Source: a virus
Direction: 5' to 3' (one strand)
Virus record (IMG/VR): IMGVR_UViG_3300024229_000018
Location: 1-35,093 of that record
Length of the DNA: 35,093 nt
Below the pieces are notes generated by a model that was not told the origin of the DNA, made no database searches, and worked only from the letters and a program-made list of their open reading frames with translations. The first letter of the stretch is position 1; each line of letters starts with the position of its first letter. Of this stretch, positions 13,698 through 35,093 are shown one piece after another. Position numbers and translations under genes: made by a program.

Positions 13698-14136
13698 GAT
13701 GCTCCTTGATTAAATGTTTATACAATTGATTCGCGGTGTATATATGCCAGGTTCTTAAACCGCCAATCCCTAACAAGGCCTTAGTTTGCTCAACACAAGT
13801 GCAAAGTGTTGGCCAGGGATTTCGGATCCTGGTGTTATCACGACGAATATTAACGTGGATTATAACACTACAATTAGTATCGCTGACAACATTTTGTATC
13901 TTATGTTGTGGACCAAAGGGTAAAACGTGGATGTCAGTCCCGCCAAGCCTAGGATTAAAAGAGATCCAATTGAATCCATCCCAACGTACTGCCCACACAT
14001 GACGAATGCCTGGTTTAAGCAATTTGGCAAGTTTCCAGGGCATATCACCATGCTCGAATATAACGTACCATTCAGCAAAGTCATACTTCCAATCTTCGAT
14101 CAGTGAGTGCTTGAGCCAGCTCAAAAGATCTTCCAA
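13657..14136 (-). CDS. Conserved phage protein of unknown function (159 aa), possibly papain-like
   Basis: An N-terminal half has the pattern IRHVWAVRWDGFNWISFNP, and a later segment reads CTCVEQTKALLGI followed by WHIYTANQLYKHLI. The spacing of His (near residue 46) and Cys (near 112) could suit a permuted papain-like amidase, but this is only a guess. The C-terminus is a Ser/Thr tail. It overlaps the terminase end by 16 bases and the next small gene by 41. If enzymatic, it is one of few candidates for peptidoglycan hydrolysis in this genome. Confidence 0.6.
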   Translation of the reverse strand: MEDLLSWLKHSLIEDWKYDFAEWYVIFEHGDMPWKLAKLLKPGIRHVWAVRWDGFNWISFNPRLGGTDIHVLPFGPQHKIQNVVSDTNCSVIIHVNIRRDNTRIRNPWPTLCTCVEQTKALLGIGGLRTWHIYTANQLYKHLIKEHHGKKESSTSTTTS

Positions 14137-15398
14137 TCCTGTTTGAGAACAGCTGGACCATTCATACCTTCATGACGTTTATCAATCCAGGCGACAGCGA
14201 AATATCGGAAGGCATCAGCTCCATGTGAGCTCCAATCATGTAGTGGGCGATCCTTGTAAACTCTTTTGTCCTCGTCATACTCGCAGCGGTAATAACTCAG
14301 AGCTCTGATTCCATCAGCGCAGCGATTCTCATCAAAATAACACCTAGGCAATATTCTCCTGGCAGCTTCTATGCCATCCATGATCGGTAGATTCGGTGTG
14401 ACTCGGAACACAATCCCCATTTGCCTGGCTTGATCCTTTCTTGATTTACCAGTGGTCAGCTCTCGTACTTGAATATCATGAGGGGCCCAGTGATCTCCAA
14501 AGGTGATGCCATGCGTATCTCGAAAGTCATGCAGCCAATTGATGTAATGTTGTAACCCTTCTCCGCTGTTCTCATAGTAACCAACAACTCGCAGCTCAGT
14601 GCCAGCTCTCTGGATCAGCCAGATTGAGGTTGCGTCTGCTATTCCAAGATCCCAGAATGAATGAACCGGCAGCACTGGATCAATTGGAACTTTGGTGATC
14701 CTGTTGTCCTCCCTGGCTGCTTCGATCTGCCTGGCATAATAGGCACCCTTCCTGTTTTCTAGTGGCTCTCCAAGCCAGATATGCTTGTATAGAGCTTTAT
14801 CGACTTTCTCCAGGTGTACCCTTTCCTTCTCCAAAGTTTCTGGAAAAAATGGGTTGTCAACGTAATTGACTTTGACTACGTATGAATCTTCTGGTGGATT
14901 GACTACAAACCTTTGGTAAGTTGGATCCAGCAGATCCTGGGCATTAAACGAGATCCAGATCTCACTGCCTGGAGCTCTTATGGTCGGAATAAGAGTATCG
15001 TAACTGACTGAAGTGATTTTTTCTGCTTCTTCGAGCCATACCACCTGGATTCCTTCCATTGATTTGATCTTGGTGATGTTTGATCTGAGTCCTTCAAAGC
15101 TAAACCTGGATCCATTACGACCAATGATCTGTGTCTTTTGAATGTCAAAGAAATCTTCCAGGCCCATTCGCTCGATCGTATCAGCAAGGAGCAGCAGCAC
15201 TGAGTCATTGATCGACTTCTGGATCTCCCTGGCGCATAAGATCCTGGTCTTTTCTCGGTAAGCTCTCATGATCAAGAGCTGCGCGATCGTCCAGGATTTG
15301 CCAGATCCTCGCCCTCCATGTGCTACTTTGTATCGATGAGGATTTAAGAAGGGTTCAAACTTCTCAGTGATTTGTATGCGGAGCTTCGTCGTCGTCAT
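14121..15398 (-). CDS. terL: Terminase large subunit (425 aa)
   Basis: This is the ATP-driven DNA packaging motor and nuclease. Walker A is GGRGSGKS at residues 28-35, and Walker B is VVWLEEA at 119-125, with the catalytic Glu pair. The C-terminal nuclease shows FWDLGIADATSIWL (Asp 250), HDIQ (Asp 308) and DWSSHGADAFRY (Asp 395), the three acidic positions of the RNase H-like fold. The length fits the family. The start overlaps the zinc-binding small gene by 35 bases. It is unusually dense in GATC (about 25) and CCWGG (about 14) by hand count. Confidence 0.95.
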   Translation of the reverse strand: MTTTKLRIQITEKFEPFLNPHRYKVAHGGRGSGKSWTIAQLLIMRAYREKTRILCAREIQKSINDSVLLLLADTIERMGLEDFFDIQKTQIIGRNGSRFSFEGLRSNITKIKSMEGIQVVWLEEAEKITSVSYDTLIPTIRAPGSEIWISFNAQDLLDPTYQRFVVNPPEDSYVVKVNYVDNPFFPETLEKERVHLEKVDKALYKHIWLGEPLENRKGAYYARQIEAAREDNRITKVPIDPVLPVHSFWDLGIADATSIWLIQRAGTELRVVGYYENSGEGLQHYINWLHDFRDTHGITFGDHWAPHDIQVRELTTGKSRKDQARQMGIVFRVTPNLPIMDGIEAARRILPRCYFDENRCADGIRALSYYRCEYDEDKRVYKDRPLHDWSSHGADAFRYFAVAWIDKRHEGMNGPAVLKQDWKIF

Positions 15399-21091: not shown

Positions 21092-22006
21092 ATGAATAAA
21101 AATACTAACACAAAAGATATGACTCACGACGAATGGCTTGCTGCTAGGAAGCGTGGTATAGGCGGATCGGACGCTGGTGCGATCCTTGGATTAAGTAAAT
21201 GGAAATCTCCTCTTGATGTTTACCTGGATAAGATTGGTAGCGCAGAAGATACACCAGATAGCGAACGTATGTATTGGGGCCGAACCTTGGAGGATATAGT
21301 CGCAGCTGAGTATGAGAAAAGATCTGGCAATAAAGTCCGACGTAATAACAGGATCATTGCTCACAAAGATTATGACTTCATACTTGCTAACCTGGACAGG
21401 GAGATCGTTGGAAAGAATGGGATCCTGGAGTGCAAGACTTCTGGATATTCTCCAGATTGGGGTGATCTTGGATCAACTGATATTCCAGAATATTATCTTG
21501 CCCAGGTTTATCACTACATGGCTGTGACTGATGCTGAGTTTGCTGATGTTGCAGTTCTGATCAACGGAAATGATTTTAGGATCTATCACATACCTAGGGA
21601 CCAGGAAATTATAGATCACCTGGTCGAGAAAGAAGTTGAGTTCTGGAATGACAATGTCCTGGCTAAAGTGCAGCCGGATCCGATCAACAACACTGACATT
21701 AAAAACAAATGGCCACATGACAATGGCGCAACATTAATTTCTAAAAAGCTTGCAGCTAAATGTTCCAAGCTCAGTGGAGTTAATTTAAAGATACGAGATC
21801 TCACTAAGATCAAAAGTGATTTGCAAGTTGAGATCCAAAAAGAGATGGCTGATCATTCATCACTAGCTGATGAGTCCGGCCAACTTCTCGCGACTTGGAA
21901 AGAGAGCTCCACTCGTCGCGTTGACACCAAGCGACTCAAAGAGGATGGGATGTATGACAAATACGCTACTGAATCTTCGAGTCGCACCTTTCGTTTAAAG
22001 ATATAG
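21092..22006 (+). CDS. YqaJ-type viral exonuclease (304 aa)
   Basis: A phage recombination exonuclease that resects double-stranded DNA ends. RKRGIGGSDAGAILGLSKW (residues 20-38) is the family signature. The nuclease core has YWGRTLEDIVAAEYE (61-75), LDRE (Asp 102), GILECKT (Glu 113, Lys 115) and YLAQVYHYMAV (Gln 138). It forms a pair with the Bet-like annealing protein directly downstream. No Shine-Dalgarno is visible, and the ATG lies only ten bases after a TATAAT box, so translation may be leaderless; a start at 21119 is the alternative. Confidence 0.9.
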   Translation: MNKNTNTKDMTHDEWLAARKRGIGGSDAGAILGLSKWKSPLDVYLDKIGSAEDTPDSERMYWGRTLEDIVAAEYEKRSGNKVRRNNRIIAHKDYDFILANLDREIVGKNGILECKTSGYSPDWGDLGSTDIPEYYLAQVYHYMAVTDAEFADVAVLINGNDFRIYHIPRDQEIIDHLVEKEVEFWNDNVLAKVQPDPINNTDIKNKWPHDNGATLISKKLAAKCSKLSGVNLKIRDLTKIKSDLQVEIQKEMADHSSLADESGQLLATWKESSTRRVDTKRLKEDGMYDKYATESSSRTFRLKI

Positions 22007-22014
22007 GAGAAGAT

Positions 22015-22644
22015 ATGGGGAATAAAAGCTTAACAAAAGTAATGGCAGCTAAGTTCGATATGGAACCTGGCCCATTTATTAATGCACTGAAAGAAACTGC
22101 TGTCCCAGGCAATATTAGCGATGGACAATTTGCAGCGTTCTTAATGGTTGCTAAGGAATATAACCTTAATCCAATTACCAGGGAGATCTTTGCGTTTCCT
22201 TCCCAAAGTGGTATTCGACCGATCGTTTCAATCGATGGCTGGATGAAGTTGATTAATAACCATCGAGATTACAACGGAATGAAGAGCACTGACAATTTAG
22301 ATAAAGAAGGAAATTTAATATCTATTACTGTTGAGATGTTTCGTAAAGATCGTGATCATCCTGTAGTGGTTACTGAGTACATGAGTGAATGTCGACGTAA
22401 CACTCCAACTTGGAAGCAATGGCCAGCCAGGATGCTTCGACATAAAGCAATGATCCAGGCTGCAAGATACGCATTTTCTTTTAGCGGTATTGAAGAAGAG
22501 GATGAGTTTAAAAGATCTGAGATTCCTGTGGAAGCAGTAGTTGTAGATTCAGAAGTAAAAGGTGCTGAAGCAATGAAGCAGAAGTTAATTAATAAAGGAG
22601 AAGCTAATGACGCTGAAACAAGAAGTGCTGCAAAAGTTGATTGA
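22015..22644 (+). CDS. bet: Bet/RecT-family single-strand annealing protein (209 aa)
   Basis: This protein anneals the single strands produced by the exonuclease. The diagnostic block EYNLNPITREIFAFPSQSGI then IVSIDGWMKLINNHRDYNG (residues 48-88) and TWKQWPARMLRHKAMIQAARYAFSFSGI near 131-158 are typical of lambda Bet-type proteins. The start follows AGGAG at six bases and is eight bases after the exonuclease stop. The C-terminal tail overlaps the next gene by 38 bases. At 209 residues it is shorter than lambda Bet (261) but contains the core. Confidence 0.92.
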   Translation: MGNKSLTKVMAAKFDMEPGPFINALKETAVPGNISDGQFAAFLMVAKEYNLNPITREIFAFPSQSGIRPIVSIDGWMKLINNHRDYNGMKSTDNLDKEGNLISITVEMFRKDRDHPVVVTEYMSECRRNTPTWKQWPARMLRHKAMIQAARYAFSFSGIEEEDEFKRSEIPVEAVVVDSEVKGAEAMKQKLINKGEANDAETRSAAKVD

Positions 22645-23706: not shown

Positions 23707-24867
23707 ATGCTAACAGATCGTTTTATTAAATCAGTAAAACCTGGTGAAAAAGAAAAATTTATTGCAGACTATAATGGCTTATATTTAAGGATTGGTCCTA
23801 CTCAAGAAGGTGGTGGAAAAACCTGGAGATTTCTTTATACTTCACCAGGATCTAAATACCCAGTTAAAAAAAGCCTGGGTAAATATGATCATGTTAGTTT
23901 AGTTGATGCCAGGGATATAGCTCGCGATTATAAAAAACAACTGGCCCTGGGTATAGATCCATTTAGAAAGAAAGCAAAAGAATTAACAGCTGCTTCTGAT
24001 TTTATTGAAGCCTATGCTGAATTAAAAGGTTTAAATAAAACTACAAAAGCTTATGATGATGTAGTTAGGAACATAGGATATTTAGTTGATAATCTAGGAG
24101 ATCATCCACCACATGATTATTCTAAAGTAGAGATCAATAGTTTTATTAGAGATCGTTTAAGATCTGTCAAGACAACTTCTGTGCGTCGAGAATTAAATTC
24201 AATTTGTGCTGTTTTTAATCTAGTTTATGAAGAACATGAGATTGATCACTTCCATCGTTTCCGAAAATTAAACATACCAAACTTTGGATTAGATAGTGAA
24301 GAGCGTGAAGATTTTACTTCTGATCAATTAAATTTTTTGAGAGATGTTGTTGGAGGATCTGATAACAAAACAGAACAGATCATAGGTTTATTAATTGATA
24401 CTGGCATGAGATCTTCTGAAGCAGTAGGATTAGCTTCTCGGGATATAAACCTGGGACGAATACCTCATGTTGTTTTACATAAGAATCCTATGCGTAGGCT
24501 AAAGAATAGAAGCTCTCAAAGGATCATTCCCCTGGTCGGATCTTCACTATCCGCTGCTCAATGTTTAGATCTTACAGAAGAGTGGGTTTTTCCAAGATGG
24601 TTAAAAAAAGATCGTAGTAAAGATACTGCTAATGCAAATGTAAATAATAGAATTCATAGAATACTTGGGCCAGGATCTCCAACGTCACATTCCTTTCGGC
24701 ATACTCTAGCTACCAGGTTAAGATCAGTTGAATGTCCGGAGTACATGAGAAAAGAATTAGGTGGTTGGGCCAGTTCTGTTTCAGAGTCTTATGGTACACC
24801 AACAGACATAACTAACAAAGCTGCTTATATTGAGAAGTCCCTGGACTGGGTTACTGAGATCTTATAA
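23707..24867 (+). CDS. int: Tyrosine recombinase / integrase (386 aa)
   Basis: This enzyme integrates and excises the phage at a tRNA. Residues 1-80 form the N-terminal arm-binding domain typical of P4-type integrases (LTDRFIKSVKPGEKEKF, then DYNGLYLRIG and GKTWRFLYTSPG). The catalytic set is visible: Arg 235 in TGMRSSEAVGL, HSFRH with His 328 and Arg 331, and Tyr 362 in SESYGT after GGW. The length is normal. The start lacks a clear Shine-Dalgarno and lies just after the right arm repeats. The gene converges with the phosphoesterase and overlaps its end by 17 bases. Confidence 0.93.
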   Translation: MLTDRFIKSVKPGEKEKFIADYNGLYLRIGPTQEGGGKTWRFLYTSPGSKYPVKKSLGKYDHVSLVDARDIARDYKKQLALGIDPFRKKAKELTAASDFIEAYAELKGLNKTTKAYDDVVRNIGYLVDNLGDHPPHDYSKVEINSFIRDRLRSVKTTSVRRELNSICAVFNLVYEEHEIDHFHRFRKLNIPNFGLDSEEREDFTSDQLNFLRDVVGGSDNKTEQIIGLLIDTGMRSSEAVGLASRDINLGRIPHVVLHKNPMRRLKNRSSQRIIPLVGSSLSAAQCLDLTEEWVFPRWLKKDRSKDTANANVNNRIHRILGPGSPTSHSFRHTLATRLRSVECPEYMRKELGGWASSVSESYGTPTDITNKAAYIEKSLDWVTEIL

Positions 24868-26821: not shown

Positions 26822-27090
26822 AAAAATTTCTCATATATGTAATTAATTTCTTTTTGAGTAAATGAAAGTTCTCTTACCAGGGCCTCAATTTTTGCTTCAA
26901 GCTTTGCCCTTTCTACTTCATGTGAGTAATGCTTAGAAGAGGGAACGATTTGCATGTCTGGTGTAACTAATAGATTCATAGCCTGGTTTAATCTGACTAT
27001 GTCATTGTTAGCTGAAAACAATTGAGATCCTAAGAATGCCACAAAAGCAAACATTAGACCGACGATACCTTGCATTATTTTTTCGTTCAT
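26818..27090 (-). CDS. Membrane-anchored helical protein, possible spanin-like (90 aa)
   Basis: A hydrophobic N-terminal segment (IVGLMFAFVAFLGSQLF, about residues 9-25) is followed by a polar periplasm-like part and a coiled-coil end (VERAKLEAKIEALVRELSFTQKEI). It could be an inner-membrane spanin, as this topology suits an i-spanin, but no outer-membrane partner is recognised. Four-base overlap downstream and one-base overlap upstream. It also contains the last GATC and lies just after the last CCWGG before the motif-free island. Confidence 0.6.
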   Translation of the reverse strand: MNEKIMQGIVGLMFAFVAFLGSQLFSANNDIVRLNQAMNLLVTPDMQIVPSSKHYSHEVERAKLEAKIEALVRELSFTQKEINYIYEKFL

Positions 27091-27320
27091 TAGGCTTCTA
27101 CTTTAGCTGCCTTTAATTCATCAGTAGTAGTCATACTATCTACTTGCTTTGTAATATCTCTGAGCCTTTGTTTCTCTGTCACAATAGCTGAAGTTGATGT
27201 ACCAGCTTCTTGTGCCTTCATAAAGAGAATGTCTTGTTCCTCTAACAGAGGTTTTCTGTCTGCTCTAAGTCTGTCTTTAGTAATGACTTTGGCTTTAGCT
27301 ATATCTACAGTTATAGGCAT
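27090..27320 (-). CDS. Small helical protein (76 aa)
   Basis: A charged, wholly helical product: ITVDIAKAKVITKDRLRADRK, then LLEEQDILFMKAQEAGTSTSAI and a C-terminal helix (RLRDITKQVDSM). Similar small proteins lie at the end of fibre clusters in other phages and may be fibre assembly or scaffolding helpers. No firm family. It overlaps the genes on both sides by one base (TAATG). Confidence 0.6.
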   Translation of the reverse strand: MPITVDIAKAKVITKDRLRADRKPLLEEQDILFMKAQEAGTSTSAIVTEKQRLRDITKQVDSMTTTDELKAAKVEA

Positions 27321-27598
27321 TATTTATTCTCCTTCATATTGTATTTAGCTAAGTCCTCTGCACTCAAGTCTGCTGAAGTCTTTTCATCAGAACCAGCAGT
27401 ATATGTCCAAGCATTTCTAAAAGACCTGTCAGATAAGTCAACTGAGTCAGCTATGATTTCGTACTTAGTGCCAGTAGGTAAATCTTTGTTAGCTATGTGT
27501 ATTATCTTTTCTTCATCTGTACCTGTTAGCTGTGCTAAAAATTTAGGAGCTGGTGTTAATACTTGAGCCACTCCACCATTGTCATATATTAATCTCAT
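27320..27598 (-). CDS. Hypothetical protein in fibre cluster (92 aa)
   Basis: ATG 27598 follows TTGGAG at six bases and lies one base after the upstream stop; a TTG four codons earlier is less likely. The product opens with MRLIYDNGGVAQVLTPAPKF and includes LPTGTKYEIIADSVDLSDRSFRNAWTYT, a pattern reminiscent of small fibre-associated proteins. No catalytic or membrane features. The role is unknown. Confidence 0.6.
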   Translation of the reverse strand: MRLIYDNGGVAQVLTPAPKFLAQLTGTDEEKIIHIANKDLPTGTKYEIIADSVDLSDRSFRNAWTYTAGSDEKTSADLSAEDLAKYNMKENK

Positions 27599-27599
27599 A

Positions 27600-28427
27600 T
27601 TAATCTCCAAAAACTATTAAAGTGTTTTCACTTCTGTCTACATAACCCGCATTTCCGTTTTTAGCAGTAGCAACTTTAACACGTCCTGTTTCTAAATTAG
27701 CTGTGCTGCTATCAGCAAAATACATAACTGCACCATAATAACCATCTTGAGTCATTCCACTTACAGCATAATTAGCGTTAGCCATAGCGTTAGAAAAATT
27801 TACCCAAAACTGACCAGTACCACTATCAGTAAGACTAGACACATTATGAGAATCGTTAATAGCTGCTGTACCAGTACCATTAAAATTACACCAAGCCTTT
27901 GCAGTAAACTGTGACAAGCCTCTGCCATCGTTTGTAATATTTAAAGCAGTAGTCCAAGTAATCGCTGAATCTGCTGAACCTGAAGATGCTACTTTAAATT
28001 GATGAGTGCCACCTTCTTGAGAATAATCTGTAGCATAAGACGATTCCATATATTTATAATTCTCACTTACATCAATCATCTTAGCGTTGTTTGAAAGATG
28101 TGTTTGATTTGAATACCCATAAACAGCACCTCTGTTGCCAGATTGTATAACTTTAGGATACCAATCAGTTTCAGGAGTTACACCGAAACCTACATTTTCA
28201 TTTGAATCAATTGTTATAGCAGTAGCATCAGCATTGTCATCAATACCTGTCGAGGTAAAGTTAGGTATCGTACCTGTCAGCTTGGTTGCATCAATCGTAG
28301 TAGAAGTAAACGCACCAGCAGAACTGATACTCGCTTTCTCTACTCCGTTGGCTTGGAACTTTATGTCTTTAGAAGAACCATCAGCGTTTAGTGTTAGATG
28401 TTCGTCACTTGATTTTATTGTACTCAT
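27600..28427 (-). CDS. Fibre/receptor-binding-type protein (275 aa)
   Basis: The N-terminal 60 residues have the fibre-repeat pattern HLTLNADGSSKDIKFQANGV and KASISSAGAFTSTTIDATKL. A central part (about 75-200) is rich in Tyr, Ser and Gly, and the C-terminal 85 residues (SLTDSGTGQFWVNFSNAMAN, then YAVSGMTQDGYYG, ending TLIVFGD) look like a compact beta domain used at fibre tips. It probably binds the host surface. It overlaps the preceding gene by four bases (ATGA). G+C and word use differ from the head genes. Confidence 0.65.
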   Translation of the reverse strand: MSTIKSSDEHLTLNADGSSKDIKFQANGVEKASISSAGAFTSTTIDATKLTGTIPNFTSTGIDDNADATAITIDSNENVGFGVTPETDWYPKVIQSGNRGAVYGYSNQTHLSNNAKMIDVSENYKYMESSYATDYSQEGGTHQFKVASSGSADSAITWTTALNITNDGRGLSQFTAKAWCNFNGTGTAAINDSHNVSSLTDSGTGQFWVNFSNAMANANYAVSGMTQDGYYGAVMYFADSSTANLETGRVKVATAKNGNAGYVDRSENTLIVFGD

Positions 28428-28969
28428 CTTAATAATGCTCCCGAAAAGTGAATTAATTTAGTTGTTGTTCCTGAAGCAGTTTCAGTATAAGAACCTAACC
28501 AAAGATTATCTCCAGCATTTAAATTAAGAATTATTGTTCCTGTATTGTGTACTTGGGAATTTACATTACTTCTCGTACCACCAGTACCACTCATCTTATA
28601 CATCGTATCGTGTGTTCCTGAGTATGTACCCCCTTCACGATATAATTGACCAACGACTTCATTGAAAGTAGTGTAATTGTTTGCAACTGTACTAAAGTCA
28701 TTCATAATTAAAGCAGTAATTAAATAAAGTCCAGCTTCAGATACTTTTATATAACCACTTGAGCCAGCAGTAACTGTAATTCCTGAACCAGCATAATAAT
28801 TTCCTGTAGGTGCAGTAATACTTAATTTGTTTGGTGGCCAACTTTGTGAACCAGTTTGTGTTGGGCCTTCTAAATACCAAGAAGAATTATTTGTGCTAAT
28901 ATCAGCAGAAGTAATTGTTCCGTCTTGTATTTTGTTGACTCCAGTTGAGCCACTAATCTCTGTTGGCAT
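28424..28969 (-). CDS. C1q/TNF-like fibre-tip protein (181 aa)
   Basis: A short stem, GVNKIQDGTITSADIS, is followed by a jelly-roll-like domain: GLYLITALIMNDF (about residues 81-93) and IILNLNAGDNLWLGSYTE, ending FSGALLR. The last part matches the C1q-type signature (GDxLWL and a final FSG-LL), a fold common on trimeric phage fibre tips. It is likely a receptor-binding subunit. The motif IxDGTITSADI is shared with the 84-residue protein at 30319. Confidence 0.65.
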   Translation of the reverse strand: MPTEISGSTGVNKIQDGTITSADISTNNSSWYLEGPTQTGSQSWPPNKLSITAPTGNYYAGSGITVTAGSSGYIKVSEAGLYLITALIMNDFSTVANNYTTFNEVVGQLYREGGTYSGTHDTMYKMSGTGGTRSNVNSQVHNTGTIILNLNAGDNLWLGSYTETASGTTTKLIHFSGALLR

Positions 28970-28979
28970 TTACTACTCC

Positions 28980-29297
28980 TTATGGTTTAGGATTGGCATC
29001 CTTGACAGCTTTAATTGCTTTGTGCCACTCACCTGTTGCATCTAACTTACCAGCAGTCATATCGTGGTACAGTTGGTCTAACTGCTCCTTGATTTCTGCA
29101 TAAGCTGTTGCCCTTGTTCTTTGGTATGCGTTACCATCATAGACACCTTGCAGTCTTGTAACCTCTGCGTCTATTTCGCTCTGTGTGGGTTCAGTTTGTT
29201 TACTGTCCAACCACTCTAATTCGTCACCTCTCAATACCCATTCAGCGTTTGGCTTTAGGGATTGTAGGGCATCGACTGTTGTCATCTCATTTGCCAT
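28980..29297 (-). CDS. Fibre-associated small protein, paralog 1 (105 aa)
   Basis: The central part ATRLQ-like (EVTRLQGVYDGNAYQRTRAT) and the end AIKAVKDANPKP match the 99-residue protein at 30584 (EVTRLQAVYDSQEYARKRKA and AILAIKSEFPKP). The middle, IKEQLDQLYHDMTAGKLDATGEWHKA, is a pattern common in phage tail-fibre neighbours, thought to be assembly helpers. N-terminal 35 residues hold a small WVLRGDELEWLD motif. It follows the 170-residue fibre-tip gene. Confidence 0.65.
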   Translation of the reverse strand: MANEMTTVDALQSLKPNAEWVLRGDELEWLDSKQTEPTQSEIDAEVTRLQGVYDGNAYQRTRATAYAEIKEQLDQLYHDMTAGKLDATGEWHKAIKAVKDANPKP

Positions 29298-29327
29298 TTC
29301 TTACTCCTGTTAAAATTAAATTAAAAA

Positions 29328-29840
29328 TCATCCCGCTATCTCCATTAATACAAGTTGGGTTTTTTCGCCATCACTATTCATCTTAATTAAGTTACCACCA
29401 TAAGAAGAAGCCTGAAGTTTATAAGTAGTAGCAGATGTTGTTGATGGACTGTCTATATACGAAATGTTATGTGATGAATGAATTTCTCCAGCATTAGCAT
29501 AGTATTGAGAATAATTACTATTAGATGTCCATACAGCTGTAGAACCTCTAACAAGTTTTGTTCCAAAACCAGAGCCAGCAATTGAAGTTCTAGCGTGCGC
29601 TCTCCACATAACAAAAATTTTACTTGCTGTAGATGATGGTGTAATTGTTGCGCTATGACCTATATCAGTATATGTGGCAGTAGATAAATTTGTTTGGGTT
29701 GAATGTTCTGAAATAACAACTTGCAACACAGCACCAGTAGGCATACTCGCACTTGTCATTCCCGATAGCTGATTCTGTAAGGCTATAGTGCCTGAACCAT
29801 CTGCGGTTTCTAATTGGTCTACTTTAATTTTTGATGCCAT
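29328..29840 (-). CDS. Fibre-tip protein, paralog of 29840 and 30885 genes (170 aa)
   Basis: An N-terminal stem (KIKVDQLETADGSGTIALQN) is followed by the shared tip domain: VLQVVISEHSTQT, then SATITPSSTASKIFVMW, a central LVRGSTAVW, then SYIDSPSTTSATTYKLQ and the end LVLMEIAG. The same blocks in the same order occur in the genes at 29840 and 30885. The variable parts between blocks are probably surface loops. It may act as a receptor-binding subunit. Confidence 0.7.
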   Translation of the reverse strand: MASKIKVDQLETADGSGTIALQNQLSGMTSASMPTGAVLQVVISEHSTQTNLSTATYTDIGHSATITPSSTASKIFVMWRAHARTSIAGSGFGTKLVRGSTAVWTSNSNYSQYYANAGEIHSSHNISYIDSPSTTSATTYKLQASSYGGNLIKMNSDGEKTQLVLMEIAG

Positions 29841-30319
29841 TAGCCAGCTACCTCCATAAGTGTTATAAACGCATCAGAACCGCCCCACCCAACAAACACA
29901 GAACCAGCAGCACCTGTTTTCATTTGTGTTTTATAGGTAGTTGCTGATGTAGTGCTTGGTGAATCTAAATAAGAACAGCTACAAGAGCCTACTTGATTGT
30001 CGCCCGATGCGTTGTCATAAGCAGCCATAGTTTCAAAATTACTTATGACTGTAGAACCACGCAATAAATTTAACATTAGTCTAGAGTTACCACTTTGTTT
30101 GCCACATCCAGTATGTATTACATTAACAAGTATTTTGTTAGAAGATGAGGTTGGTGTTATTGAAGCTGTTAATCCAGTATCTGCCCAAGTAGATGTTGAA
30201 TTGCTATGTGTTCCTGAACTAACATATTTAACATTAACAACTTGTACTATATGACCAGCAGGCATTTGCAAATCATAACCAGTTGGTGCTTGTATTGCTT
30301 TGACTTCTAATGTACTCAT
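29840..30319 (-). CDS. Fibre-tip protein, paralog of 29328 and 30885 genes (159 aa)
   Basis: A short stem (STLEVKAIQAPTGYDLQMPAG) precedes the shared domain: IVQVVNVKYVSSG, TASITPTSSSNKILVNV, LLRGSTVI, SYLDSPSTTSATTYKTQ and a final ITLMEVAG. Conserved blocks are the framework, while the segments around residues 75-110 differ most between paralogs. One-base overlaps (TAATG) join it to both neighbours. Confidence 0.7.
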   Translation of the reverse strand: MSTLEVKAIQAPTGYDLQMPAGHIVQVVNVKYVSSGTHSNSTSTWADTGLTASITPTSSSNKILVNVIHTGCGKQSGNSRLMLNLLRGSTVISNFETMAAYDNASGDNQVGSCSCSYLDSPSTTSATTYKTQMKTGAAGSVFVGWGGSDAFITLMEVAG

Positions 30320-30573
30320 TACACTACGCTCCAGTTTCCGTTGACTGTGACTGTGTAGCCATCAGCAATTGTTATAGGCCCCGCGCTCATCCCATTAGAT
30401 GTACTAGGAATGGTTATATTCTCAGATATTGTTTGGGCATTGGTTCTGATCACACTCGAAGCTCCTAGACTTGGGCCACCTAACTCTACTGCTGAGTTAA
30501 TGTCACTAGCAGTAATTGTGTTGTCTAGTATTTCGTTTGTGGTAATTCCACCGCCACTAATTGTTATTGCCAT
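30319..30573 (-). CDS. Short fibre-stem protein (84 aa)
   Basis: The product resembles a fragment of a marine-type tail fibre: TISGGGITTNEILDNTITAS at the start and NGMSAGPITIADGYTVTVNG with a terminal WSVV. The last block recurs at the C-terminus of the 555-residue fibre (NALTAGPITINSGVSVTIPT, then WIVA), so the two share a terminal module. It may be a trimer-capping peptide. Confidence 0.6.
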   Translation of the reverse strand: MAITISGGGITTNEILDNTITASDINSAVELGGPSLGASSVIRTNAQTISENITIPSTSNGMSAGPITIADGYTVTVNGNWSVV

Positions 30574-30583
30574 CTAGTTACTC

Positions 30584-30883
30584 CTATGGTTTTGGAAACT
30601 CAGACTTAATTGCTAATATGGCATCCTTGTGTGTAGTCGTGCCATTAATAGAATCATCGCTGATTAATTCAAATTGATTTAACGCATCGTATTTAGCTTT
30701 GCGTTTTCTTGCGTATTCTTGGGAGTCATAGACTGCTTGGAGTCTAGTTACTTCTGCTGAAATTAAAGATTGATTTAATACAACTGTATTGCCTTTTTCA
30801 TCCCACGCTTTTAGTGGTGAAGAATGAGAAATAGTAGTAACTGTTGAATGTGTGTTTCTTATTGCTAAATCTTTATCTACCAT
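30584..30883 (-). CDS. Fibre-associated small protein, paralog 2 (99 aa)
   Basis: Paralog of the 105-residue protein at 28980: shared EVTRLQAVYDSQEYARKRKA and a common ending (KDAILAIKSEFPKP). The N-terminal 35 residues differ (AIRNTHSTVTTISHSSPLKA). It lies directly after the 235-residue fibre-tip gene, as the other copy lies after the 170-residue one, so the pair seems to be duplicated as a unit. Confidence 0.65.
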   Translation of the reverse strand: MVDKDLAIRNTHSTVTTISHSSPLKAWDEKGNTVVLNQSLISAEVTRLQAVYDSQEYARKRKAKYDALNQFELISDDSINGTTTHKDAILAIKSEFPKP

Positions 30884-30884
30884 A

Positions 30885-31592
30885 TTATGCTCCTATTTCC
30901 ATTAAAACTAAAGATGAAACCATATTAGAGTCCATAACCTTGCAAGTTCCATAAGTTGCTTTAAATTTAAAAGAATAAGTTAAACTTGATGTAGAGTTAG
31001 GGCTATCAAGATATGTTATATGTGCTGGATTTCTATCATCAGAAGAACCCGATTGATAAGCTAAATGATTAACTGACAAACCCCAAGCCTGTCCACCTAA
31101 ATTAGTACCATCTCTATCTATTCCCATAAAACAAAAAACATTCTGAACATTAATCCAAGTTTGTGTGCTTAATATACAAAGAATTTTGCTTGATGTTGAT
31201 GAAGGCGTTATTGCAACTGATAAATCTGTCGATTGCCAACTTGTTGCATTTGTTGAATATTGAGTGGTAGATGTATCTTGAACAACTTGCAACACTTTTC
31301 CACCACTCGGTAAGTTGGTAAGATTAGCACCACTAATAGCTGGTAATGTTCCAGTAATGTTAGCTGCTGGAATAGCTGTTAAATTAGCTGCACTTGCTGC
31401 TGGTAATGTAGCTGGGAATCTAGCATCTGCAATTGTGCCTGTTAGATTAGCTGCTGGTACGCTAGAGTTCTCATCTAACAAAGTACCTGTTGTGTCAGGT
31501 AGTGTTATCGTTCTGTCTGTACTCGTATTCGGAGCAGTTACAGTTAGTACCCCTGTGCCTGATGCGTGACCTTGTATTTTTACTTTACTCAT
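30885..31592 (-). CDS. Fibre-tip protein with repeated stem (235 aa)
   Basis: The stem is a typical marine-phage fibre repeat: TGVLTVTAPNTSTDRTITLP, then three imperfect AANLTGTIADARF/AANLTAIPAANITG/GANLTNLP units (residues 48-95). The tip domain matches the other two paralogs: VLQVVQDTSTTQYS, SVAITPSSTSSKILCIL, TYLDSPNSTSSLTYSFK and LVLMEIGA at the end. It lies eight bases after the 555-residue fibre gene and may attach to its C-terminus. Confidence 0.7.
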   Translation of the reverse strand: MSKVKIQGHASGTGVLTVTAPNTSTDRTITLPDTTGTLLDENSSVPAANLTGTIADARFPATLPAASAANLTAIPAANITGTLPAISGANLTNLPSGGKVLQVVQDTSTTQYSTNATSWQSTDLSVAITPSSTSSKILCILSTQTWINVQNVFCFMGIDRDGTNLGGQAWGLSVNHLAYQSGSSDDRNPAHITYLDSPNSTSSLTYSFKFKATYGTCKVMDSNMVSSLVLMEIGA

Positions 31593-31599
31593 AATTCTC

Positions 31600-33267
31600 C
31601 TATGCTACTATCCAAGTTGAACCCGTTGGAATCGTAACTGAAACCCCTGAGTTAATCGTTATCGGCCCAGCAGTCAAAGCGTTGTTGCCACTTGTTATGC
31701 TATAGTTAGCTGATATGGTATGTGCGTGTTCGTATAGACCTTTGTCTGTCGTATTACCACCGCCTACTGGACTCCAAGCTGAACCATCGTAAATTTCAGC
31801 GCTAGTGTCTGTTGTGTTGAATCTCATAAAACCAGCAGAAGGTGAGCCATCTCTTTGTGCTGTTGTTCCAGCTGGTAAGACTCCAGAGCCTGTGTTTGAT
31901 GTTTTGCTAACTACTGTTGCTGGATCTAAAGCAACATCTGACCAGGAGGATCCAGAATAAACTCTCATTCTGTTCGTGCTGGTGTTGTAATACATATCGC
32001 CAGCAGTTAAAGCATCGCCATCATTATCTACTGTAGGATCAGAACTCTTTGCTCCAAGATAGCTATCATCAAATGCGTCTGCGGAAGCTGCTGCTGCTGC
32101 TGCCGAAGCTGCTGCTGCTGTAGCGCTTGAAGCTGAATTTGTTGCCTGGGTAGTAGCTGTCGTTGCCTGGGTAGTAGCGGTTGATGCTGAAGTAGAAGCT
32201 GACGTTGCGGATCCCGCTGCTGCTGTAGCAGAGGAAGCTGCTGCTGTCGCTGAACTGGCAGCATTAGTTGCTGAAGTTGAAGCTTCTGAAGCTTTTGTTG
32301 TTGCTGTTGATGCACTTGTTGAAGCAGAGGTAGCACTTGTAGCTGCTGCGTTTTTAGATACTAGAGCTGCTGCTTCTGATGCTTCTGCATTTGTTTCAGC
32401 TGTTTCAGCATTTGTTTCGGCTGTTTCTGCTGCTGTCTTGGCAGTTTCCGCAGCTGTCTTAGCAGTTTCGGCTGCTGTTTTTGCTGTATCAGCTCCAGTT
32501 TTAGATGTGGCTGCTGCGGTTGCTGAACTGGCTGCTGCTGTGGCTGAGTTTGCAGCTGCTGTCGCACTGGCTGCTGCTGCCGATGCAGATGTCGCTGCTG
32601 CTGCTGAATCTATTAATAGGGCCCAATTACCATAACCAGCATTTGAAGTTAGTGGTTGTGATCCAGCTGCTGTATGAGCAGTTAAACAAATATAAACATT
32701 TGAATTTGATGTGTCTTTAACTAGATCACGAACAACGTATGCTGTTCCAGCTGCCCAGTTTCCTCTCCAAACTCCAAGCTCCTGGGTAATTGTAGGATCA
32801 CATGTAGAAGAAAATGATAAAACTTTGTTGGCACGATCAGTATCACTTTCTGTAAATTCAGATAATGGAATGCCAGTTGTGAATTGACCAAATCTTAATA
32901 CTCTATTGTTAAGATCATATTCAACTTGCTGGATCATCATTGCTAATTTATCCAGATCGTCGTTTAATGTTTCAGCTCTAAAGGTTCCACCAGTTTGATA
33001 ATCTGAGCTTCTAGCTACTGGAAGATCTCTATAGATTGTTACAATTTCTCCAGCTGAAGCGCCAGATCCTAATACAACATTTCCGCCAGAGCTCGTTCCA
33101 GCTCCAGTAACTGTGTAATGAGTTGTTAATGTTTTAAGGGTTGATCCTATATAAACTTTTAGATCTGTATTTGCAAATATTGGAAACGCATAAGCAAATG
33201 TAGTTTGGCCAGCACTAGCGGTGTACTGAACGCGTGGTGTAATATCACCGACTGTTAATGTTGCCAT
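31600..33267 (-). CDS. Tail fibre with T7 gp17-like N-terminus (555 aa)
   Basis: Residues 1-155 are the T7-type tail-fibre anchor that attaches to the tail (TPRVQYTASAGQTTFAYAFP, then LPVARSSDYQTGGTFRAETLN and DKLAMMIQQVEYDLNNRVLR). Residues 166-219 resemble a chitin-binding-like module (WRGNWAAGTAYVVRDLV, YICLTAHTA, NWALL). Residues 221-398 are an Ala/Ser/Thr-rich heptad-like rod. Two short repeats (MRVYSGSSWSDV and AEIYDGSAWSPV) and a terminal AGPITI module follow. The last 107 codons lack the GATC/CCWGG words that the rest of the gene contains, so the 3' end seems to be replaced. It starts directly after the ejection-protein stop. Confidence 0.88.
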   Translation of the reverse strand: MATLTVGDITPRVQYTASAGQTTFAYAFPIFANTDLKVYIGSTLKTLTTHYTVTGAGTSSGGNVVLGSGASAGEIVTIYRDLPVARSSDYQTGGTFRAETLNDDLDKLAMMIQQVEYDLNNRVLRFGQFTTGIPLSEFTESDTDRANKVLSFSSTCDPTITQELGVWRGNWAAGTAYVVRDLVKDTSNSNVYICLTAHTAAGSQPLTSNAGYGNWALLIDSAAAATSASAAAASATAAANSATAAASSATAAATSKTGADTAKTAAETAKTAAETAKTAAETAETNAETAETNAEASEAAALVSKNAAATSATSASTSASTATTKASEASTSATNAASSATAAASSATAAAGSATSASTSASTATTQATTATTQATNSASSATAAAASAAAAAASADAFDDSYLGAKSSDPTVDNDGDALTAGDMYYNTSTNRMRVYSGSSWSDVALDPATVVSKTSNTGSGVLPAGTTAQRDGSPSAGFMRFNTTDTSAEIYDGSAWSPVGGGNTTDKGLYEHAHTISANYSITSGNNALTAGPITINSGVSVTIPTGSTWIVA

Positions 33268-35093
33268 TTAAAATACTCCTGTTTCTGACATATCAATTGA
33301 TTCTGTTGGAGCAGAAGATCCAGGCTTCCACCAATAAGATTGACCATATTCTGTTTTTCTTTTATTAACATCTCTTCTAAATTTTTCATACGCTTTTGGA
33401 TCCAACATCTTCTGTAATTGATCTAAAATTGTTCGTTCAAATATGCCTCTAATGTACCAAGTTGAACTGCCAGGTGTATAACGTCGTAGGAATTGTATCA
33501 TATCAGCGCTAAGATTTGTATCTTTCCCGGCAGTTAATTGATCCACATTTCCTTTAGTTATATCCCATATATCATTACCTAAACCCCATACTGGTCCAGC
33601 AAGGCTTTCCATGAATGATTGACCAAATCTATTTGTTTCGGCAAATAAAAAATCTCCAAAGATTCCAGTACCACCACCTTGTAAAAAAGCAGCTTTCCAA
33701 AAATTAGGATCATTCATATCTCTTGGGTTTCTGCCTTTTGCAATGTCTTTAGCCTGGAGAGCTATAGCACCAAAGACTGTTAAACCTATAGTTAGTTGAG
33801 CAATATAGTTTATTTTGTTAGCTGTTCCTTCTAAAGCAGCTCCTCTGTATAGCTGTTTCATAATCATTAAGATAGGAAATGATTTGTACATTGCTGCAAA
33901 CCTTATAATTTCTCCAGTACCACCTCTTCTAGTACCCATAGTAGCTATTGCTTCTGATCTAAAATCTGGCATCAATACAGCATGATCTATTTCACCTAAA
34001 GTCATTTCTTGTACTTTGCCGATCAAAGCATTTTTTTGATTTGTTGGCAAATCAGATCTTTCCAGGAATTTTTCTATTGACCAATACTTAGCTCCTTTGT
34101 GTTCAATAGCTTTAGTCTTTCTTAATATTTCCCATTCTTCTGGAGAAATGTTGTATCTTTTTAATGCTTGTTGTCTAAGTTTTGGAAGATCTTTAAAAGC
34201 TTTTGCAGAGTCTTTTGCAAGTTGTGAGAAATGTGCCATTCCAAAACCTTTTCGTAAAGCATCTGTCCAGGGAGAAAGCAATGAAGCTCTCATAGTGGCA
34301 TCAGCAGCTTTAGCTGCAAAATCAGCTCCAGTGATCTCTGTAAATCTATTTGCTGCTAATGCACGAGTTGTCCAGGCTTCTGCAACTAATCCCATCTCAA
34401 CTGCAAAAATTCTATCTTCTTTATTAGCTGGATTAAATTGACGCAGCGCTTCTTTAAATACTTTCATAGAAGGTATGCCATTAATCTTTGCAGTCATTCT
34501 AGCTATCCAAGGATCATTTAATGACGATAAGAAAGCACCACCTAATTGTGCTGCAACTAATAAACTCCTGGTTGTTCTTGAAAAATCAGCAACAGTAGTC
34601 ATAACTGCGTTATTAACTTTGCCAGAAGCTACATTCCAAATCGCATCTAACTGAGCTAATCTAACGTCGTTAGCTCCTTTCTTTTTTGACATGCTTCTTA
34701 AATATTCATAACTTGCTTGAGGATTAGGCCCTAAGATCTCCATCATTGCAATTTCATGACTCATGTTTGATAAATGATCATTCATTGTTGTATAAAGATC
34801 TGGACGACCAAATTGATCATTAAGATCTAACCAGTCATCTACGTCTTTAAAAATTAAAACTCTGTGTTCCTGGTGTCTGTTAGCCATCTTAGTTCCACCT
34901 CTAGCTCCAGGCTCTAAGCTTGCTAATCCATCCGTAGTAATGTCATCATAAGCTCTTTCAAGTAAAATTCTTAATTCCAGGTTGTTCATTGGAATACCAA
35001 GATGATTTATCATTCTGTCACGATCTAATTTAGATCCAAATTTGTCAACAAAATCTTCTTTAGATATTCTTTTTACTAACTTTGGATCCCACC
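33268..35093 (-). CDS. Internal virion/ejection protein, C-terminal part (copy B, open at the window end)
   Basis: The frame is open to the right edge; the first Met inside the window (35013) is internal, as copy A at 1-1701 shows the true start. The part from 33987 down to 33268 completes the 806-residue protein. It contains a hydrophobic segment, YIAQLTIGLTVFGAIALQ, about 190 codons from the end, and ends with a short acidic tail (ESIDMSETGVF). Over the overlapping region it differs from copy A in about seven residues (for example Asp/Asn, Phe/Tyr, Lys/Asp), all conservative or surface-like. Role inferred from gene order, as a DNA-ejection protein. Confidence 0.75.
   Translation of the reverse strand, partial: WDPKLVKRISKEDFVDKFGSKLDRDRMINHLGIPMNNLELRILLERAYDDITTDGLASLEPGARGGTKMANRHQEHRVLIFKDVDDWLDLNDQFGRPDLYTTMNDHLSNMSHEIAMMEILGPNPQASYEYLRSMSKKKGANDVRLAQLDAIWNVASGKVNNAVMTTVADFSRTTRSLLVAAQLGGAFLSSLNDPWIARMTAKINGIPSMKVFKEALRQFNPANKEDRIFAVEMGLVAEAWTTRALAANRFTEITGADFAAKAADATMRASLLSPWTDALRKGFGMAHFSQLAKDSAKAFKDLPKLRQQALKRYNISPEEWEILRKTKAIEHKGAKYWSIEKFLERSDLPTNQKNALIGKVQEMTLGEIDHAVLMPDFRSEAIATMGTRRGGTGEIIRFAAMYKSFPILMIMKQLYRGAALEGTANKINYIAQLTIGLTVFGAIALQAKDIAKGRNPRDMNDPNFWKAAFLQGGGTGIFGDFLFAETNRFGQSFMESLAGPVWGLGNDIWDITKGNVDQLTAGKDTNLSADMIQFLRRYTPGSSTWYIRGIFERTILDQLQKMLDPKAYEKFRRDVNKRKTEYGQSYWWKPGSSAPTESIDMSETGVF
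33988..35093. repeat. Terminal overlap, copy B (diverged allele of 1-1106)
   Basis: Counterpart of 1-1106 with about 5% substitutions, no indels, and identical flanks of 126 and 127 bases. It shows that at least two co-existing strains contributed to the assembly. Confidence 0.9.

Follow-up and report, generated by a model that had tools for sequence, protein, structure and literature searches.

A tail-fibre tip cassette with a foreign short-word signature in a GATC- and CCWGG-rich phage genome

Described systems and the locus studied here

Modular exchange of tail-fibre and receptor-binding genes is documented in phages (PMC3945230) and in the Nahant phages (PMC8766483), where a host-range module is replaced between diverged genomes. 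Rad52-like recombinases have been put forward as agents of phage mosaicism and relaxed homologous recombination has been documented, while no virulent-temperate exchange was seen among E. coli phages (PMC3945230). A separate body of work concerns restriction-site avoidance. Rusinov et al. (2018, PMC6286503) described phages from which Type II-like palindromes have been lost almost completely, an effect strong in those that are apparently virulent, and avoidance of Type III or IIS sites was reported to be rare in phages in the same study. In broad-host-range plasmids, wider travel goes along with more targets avoided (Shaw et al. 2023, PMC10359461).

The locus presented here, in a stretch of 35,093 nucleotides of marine phage DNA from a viral metagenome record (IMGVR_UViG_3300024229_000018; hereafter the window), resembles the described fibre exchanges insofar that a host-range module is replaced between diverged phages, that the borders lie in conserved sequence, and that the recipient encodes an annealing protein. 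It differs in that the word regime also switches at the borders, and in that integrase-bearing and integrase-lacking phages have the same cassette. The loss of palindromes is as near-complete, and as strong in apparently virulent phages, as in the study of Rusinov et al.; here, however, it is tied to a module and is unlike that of the carrier, and two of the words are over-represented in the recipient. Whereas the plasmids are whole replicons, the unit in question is a gene cassette of 1-5 kb inside phage genomes. We are highly confident that a modular host-range cassette makes up the block, and that it came from a pool of word-excluding marine phages by recent recombination inside the fibre gene. 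It is mostly from gene trees that such swaps are deduced, and here short-word content marks one independently. In the literature searched, no report was found that uses short-word content to trace where a phage module came from, although this does not prove that none exists.

Word content of the block and of its genome

A first-pass annotation of the sequence had pointed to a fibre region nearly free of GATC and CCWGG. By direct count, positions 27030-31922 hold one GATC (at 30448) and no CCWGG, as compared with 25 GATC and 14 CCWGG in TerL (14121-15398). The nearest CCWGG outside the block are at 26982 on the left and 31942 on the right, and the nearest GATC at 27026 and 31923. The counts and coordinates of the annotation were all exact, including a right border at codon 448 of the fibre gene ((33267-31922)/3 = 448), and its expectation of about 50 GATC and about 30 CCWGG agrees with the 54 and 28 that flank density yields (Poisson P 1.5e-22 and 7e-13, respectively).

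Correction for coding, by permuting synonymous codons within the same genes, with an order-2 Markov model used in addition, reveals that two things make up the contrast, namely enrichment in the genome and depletion in the block. The flanks contain 245 GATC where 124 are expected (z 16.4), 131 CCWGG where 38 are expected (z 24.3) and 205 AGCT where 147 are expected, and the rest of the genome is thus rich in both words, as had been claimed. When its own codons are permuted, the block shows depletion of GATC (1 vs 9.0 expected, P 0.001) and of CATG (0 vs 13.1, P 0.001), a word absent from the first-pass annotation, and weaker depletion of ACGT (1 vs 6.6) and CCGG (0 vs 3.9). CCTGC is also low (1 vs 10.5 expected), whereas GGCC is kept (5 vs 4.6). 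The absence of CCWGG should be interpreted with caution, since only 1.1 are expected from the block's own coding (P 0.32, not significant) and 4.9 under the order-2 Markov model (P 0.01). We therefore dropped it as stand-alone evidence; it stands out only by comparison with the enriched flanks, and the depletion originally proposed for both words stands for GATC but is not significant for CCWGG on the block's own coding. The opposite pattern is displayed by CCTGA/TCAGG, which is found at its expected level in the block (11 vs 9.8) but is nearly missing from the backbone (2 vs 39 over ∼21 kb of coding sequence).

The enrichment of the flanks is real and explains most of the raw contrast. From this it could be hypothesized that the flanks were once normal and then gained GATC and CCWGG, the block being the part that did not, without any transfer. 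We find this hardly credible, since GATC and CATG fall below the neutral level in the block, which finds its nearest relatives among unrelated phages and whose neighbours switch at the borders.

The recipient carries T7-like structural genes, TerL, a repressor-like gene and, all on the plus strand, a RecE-like exonuclease (21092..22006; phrog_434, E 1e-92), a Bet-like single-strand annealing protein (22015..22644; phrog_252, E 1e-60) and a tyrosine integrase (23707..24867; PF00589 and PF13356). The first two are candidate recombination functions, and the integrase indicates that the phage is probably temperate. The window ends (1-1106 and 33988-35093, offset 33987) overlap by 1106 bases at 95% identity with 56 mismatches, which suggests a circularly closing genome of ∼33,987 bases from a mixed-strain assembly; the window is probably a near-complete genome, the sister G005 being 33,997 bases long. 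Searches of the window for tRNAs and against Rfam gave no matches. Relatives of TerL were found only in a contig of a Methylophaga MAG (76%) and in three distant ones. A host corresponding to this MAG was rejected, as CCWGG is not enriched in the MAG pieces (124 vs 166 expected) and the gene is missing from five order-mates, and no host was assigned.

Borders, ancestry and anatomy of the cassette

Three lines of evidence support an origin of the block (27088..31914, minus strand) outside its present genome. First, homology to GATC-avoiding phages starts at 31914 (8 loci) and stops at 27088 (14 loci), which agrees with the word borders within 9 and 62 bases. Homology breaks near 31.9 and 27.0 kb, which the first-pass annotation had proposed as a check, are thus found. 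Secondly, the nearest neighbours switch at these points. On the upstream side of 31914, the GATC-rich sister G005 (87%) ranks first among full-length relatives, and left of the block the closest are L188 (90%), L184 (76%) and G005 (72%), all GATC-rich; within the block the closest relatives are GATC-poor phages at 80-98%. The suggested swap of a fibre module, with one border inside the fibre gene, is borne out by this switch. Thirdly, the same cassette is found at 80-98% nucleotide identity in phages whose 40-46 kb are essentially free of GATC and CCWGG, and a search with the tip genes recovered phages with neither word over loci of 5.6-17 kb. Relative to base composition, G008 (42.4 kb) has 0 GATC where 148 are expected, G015 has 0 of 140, G017 1 of 138 (40 kb counted in each of these two), G020 3 of 161 and G022 (14 kb) 0 of 49. 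A possible source under other word constraints, as had been postulated, therefore exists. Taken together, the sequence comparisons support the view that the cassette is a recent import from unrelated phages purged of GATC and CCWGG.

The phages that hold the cassette have little else in common. G008, G022, G007 and G014 share only 3-9% of their length with one another outside their own genus, and the cassette is in all four. A direct donor, in which the cassette would match at high identity from end to end, was not found; carriers match in patches, with variable tips between. Among cultured phages, megablast gave no match for 24.8-35.1 kb, and blastn with the cassette gave only pieces of ∼43-130 bases, in pelagiphages and one cyanophage.

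Two close relatives differ from the window at the locus and do not carry the fibre region as one co-inherited block. G005 has the same layout with a different cassette, likewise GATC-free, and L187 is 75% identical to the window on both sides but carries an unrelated region between, with ordinary GATC and CATG. The locus is therefore a replacement site. As the fibre C-terminal domain is present in G005 too (76-91% identity along this part), cassettes of this kind may have been in the lineage for a while and been replaced several times, not just once. Recency of the present swap, also claimed at first reading, is supported by the fact that the words enriched in the recipient have not built up in the cassette, and that it still has its 11 CCTGA/TCAGG, a word that its new backbone excludes.

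A chimera of two phages could produce such junctions by assembly alone, and the metagenomic origin of the window, together with the 95% match of its ends and the mixture of strains, gives some reason to consider it. However, both junctions are also present, at 99.985% identity, in another contig (L009), and the layout recurs in G005 with its own cassette. We attach almost no probability to an artefact of this kind.

The imported block comprises the last ∼104 residues of the fibre and a run of small tip genes, in line with the first description of the depleted region as fibre C-terminus plus tips; all its genes are on the minus strand, as is the resident part of the 555-aa fibre (31915..33267), a T7 gp17-like N-terminal anchor followed by an Ala-rich stalk. 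Residues 4-129 of the fibre match phrog_1640 (E 1e-42), and a conserved anchor of this type is thus present; residues 1-118 match residues 1-122 of the podophage fibre orf22 (PDB 9efk). The imported C-terminal domain (31600..31914) is a conserved socket of four fibre kinds, found behind N-terminal contexts of 555, 408, 184 and 179 aa, and is 86-90% identical to its counterparts in G014, L269, G020, G008 and L016. The occurrence of these 104 residues behind four kinds of N-terminus explains how many virions can accept one cassette.

Beyond the socket lie a tip protein of 235 aa with a phrog_6942-like C-terminal domain (30885..31592), a 99-aa protein of the phrog_9114 family (30584..30883), for which an assistant or chaperone role would be a guess, and a small fibre-end-like protein of 84 aa (30319..30573; matches to phrog_7459 and phrog_5342) whose gene contains the only GATC of the block. 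These are followed by a 159-aa tip (29840..30319) of the same domain family as the 235-aa tip, with the conserved start MSTLEVKAIQAPTGYDLQMPAGH, and by a 170-aa tip with a predicted TNF-like jelly roll (29328..29840). A second phrog_9114 protein, of 105 aa (28980..29297), is 92-95% identical at the nucleotide level in many unrelated carriers. Next come a 181-aa tip without family match (28424..28969) and a 275-aa tip of the phrog_11355 tail-fibre family (27600..28427), whose first ∼55 residues are 95-98% identical in nucleotides among carriers while the remainder is variable. The left end is formed by a small conserved gene of 96 aa (27320..27610; 30 relatives) and a final gene of 76 aa (27090..27320), where donor homology stops at 27088. 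Across the tip genes (27600-31592) and those of other carriers, a highly conserved, gene-specific start is joined to a variable domain that comes from a single family, like keyed plugs with exchangeable heads, and the tip gene order differs among carriers.

Three of the small genes form one family, in which each gene has a conserved start of its own, the middle varies and the end, of LMEIAG type, is again conserved. The profile of the tip family matches residues 475-656 of orf22 (E 4.6e-20), the distal end of that fibre, and the tips are therefore distal fibre domains encoded apart. In contrast to orf22, which is one polypeptide, anchor and tips are here separate genes and only the distal part is exchanged. 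The AlphaFold2 model of the tip at 29328-29840 (pLDDT 85.7) is a predicted TNF-like jelly roll, with the Pgp3 C-terminal domain and the lectins PLTL and BC2L-C as its nearest folds in the PDB (TM 0.51-0.63 by query). At 12-19% identity there is no common sequence family, and the likeness is one of predicted fold; on this model the tips may bind glycans.

A possible union of excluded words and the travel of the cassette

Word avoidance at this locus goes with the travelling cassette itself in almost every carrier, and not with one donor lineage alone, which adds to the original proposal. The under-representation goes beyond composition and coding, by synonymous permutation and order-2 Markov model. 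In the pooled cassettes of 46 carriers, the observed/expected ratio (O/E) is 0.15 for GATC, 0.16 for CCWGG, 0.08 for CATG, 0.13 for CGCG, 0.33 for GCGC, 0.36 for GGCC, 0.42 for CCGG and 0.42 for ACGT. All eight are words that some carriers exclude, whereas eight palindromes that no carrier excludes have pooled ratios of 0.65-1.09. Even where CATG is tolerated in the backbone (O/E 0.65), the cassettes hold almost none of it (22 vs 215 expected). In a blind test on 24 carriers we took 4- or 5-mers that another carrier excludes and the own backbone tolerates, with the adjacent 3 kb as control. The cassette O/E was 0.20 for 4-mers and 0.29 for 5-mers, compared with 0.62 and 0.80 in the control, and the cassette was the lower in 22/23 and 21/23 carriers, respectively. 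Words excluded by nobody were at 1.00 (4-mers) and 1.02 (5-mers). The carriers have common cassette ancestry, and these statistics therefore overstate independence.

The scarcity of GATC and CATG in cassettes of nearly every carrier, whatever the backbone, might also be expected if the cassette were native and its low counts reflected fibre-tip protein composition or codon use rather than origin. This is very improbable. Permutation of the block's own codons restores both words, only words that other carriers exclude are depleted, and the fibre-tip region of the sister L187 has ordinary GATC and CATG.

We hypothesize that the nomadic cassette holds the union of its carriers' restriction-site exclusions, while each backbone holds only its own, and our judgement on this hypothesis is evenly divided. 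A competing hypothesis, which we regard as possible but somewhat doubtful, is that the signature reflects the regime of one multi-avoiding home lineage exporting cassettes to all others. A class excluding GATC, CCWGG, CATG and GGCC does exist (G022, L091, L092, L100, L168 and L173) and has close cassettes, G022, L091 and L100 being of the type required. However, the window block keeps GGCC, a word that this class excludes, and is poor in ACGT, which the class tolerates; CCTGC, low in the block, is not strongly low in G022 (10 vs 18). The GGCC and ACGT counts also weaken any single known donor regime for the block.

If the union hypothesis is true, host-range modules would arrive pre-cleared for restriction in hosts that the new carrier never met, and the word spectrum of a tip cassette would show the restriction regimes, hence the host groups, visited, a prediction that could be put to the test in uncultured phages. 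Short DNA words can in this way act as travel stamps for host-range genes. The presence of the same tips in phages of very different word regimes suggests that these meet in common hosts. Host range would also be tied to restriction, insofar that new receptors also bring in sites: the window cassette carries its CCTGA/TCAGG sites into a backbone nearly without them, a possible cost of the swap.

As to mechanism, the most likely course is that co-infection, or infection of a lysogen, brought recipient and donor together and that strands annealed in the C-terminal domain of the fibre and in the small genes of the left end. The resident tips would be lost and receptor specificity replaced in one step, with homology-driven annealing of the RecE/Bet type as the probable agent. 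The common C-terminal domain at its right border and the small conserved genes at its left provide the cassette with matching ends, and it is re-pluggable behind unrelated anchors. The exclusion of GATC, CCWGG and other short words in the source pool would most simply be restriction-site avoidance, a reading in line with published work (PMC6286503, PMC10359461).

Word regimes themselves shift quickly. The G008-type carriers have a DNA polymerase A 39-42% identical to those of HTVC104P, CRP-804 and HTVC021P and no integrase match, and may have their home among the HMO-2011-like podophages. Within one genus with G008, G015, G017 and G020 (81-88% identity), G016 matches G008 at 82% identity across 57% of the latter's length. 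Its word regime is nonetheless the reverse of that of G008, with CATG excluded (1 vs 139) and CCWGG tolerated (51 vs 48). G016 contains a C5-methyltransferase gene (L062:17044-18072, minus strand).

The lineage of the window (the window outside 27088-31914, L002-L005, L184, L187-L189 and G005) has O/E of 1.46-1.73 for GATC and 1.9-3.9 for CCWGG, and among 229 fetched contigs only the window, its relatives and L265 have a GATC ratio of at least 1.4. A phage methyltransferase behind this enrichment was rejected, as none of Dam or C5 type, the two families searched, was found in the lineage. Asymmetric 5-mers are nearly absent from the window backbone, L002, L003, L004 and G005 (observed/expected in the lineage: CCTGC 0/39, CCTGA 2/51, AGCCC 1/26, GAGAC 0/28), which looks like avoidance of Type III or IIS sites. 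In G007, L197, L195, L200 and L297, CCWGG is enriched 2.3-3.0-fold and GATC is not; in L197, GATC is almost absent (2/32 expected). The two words therefore vary independently.
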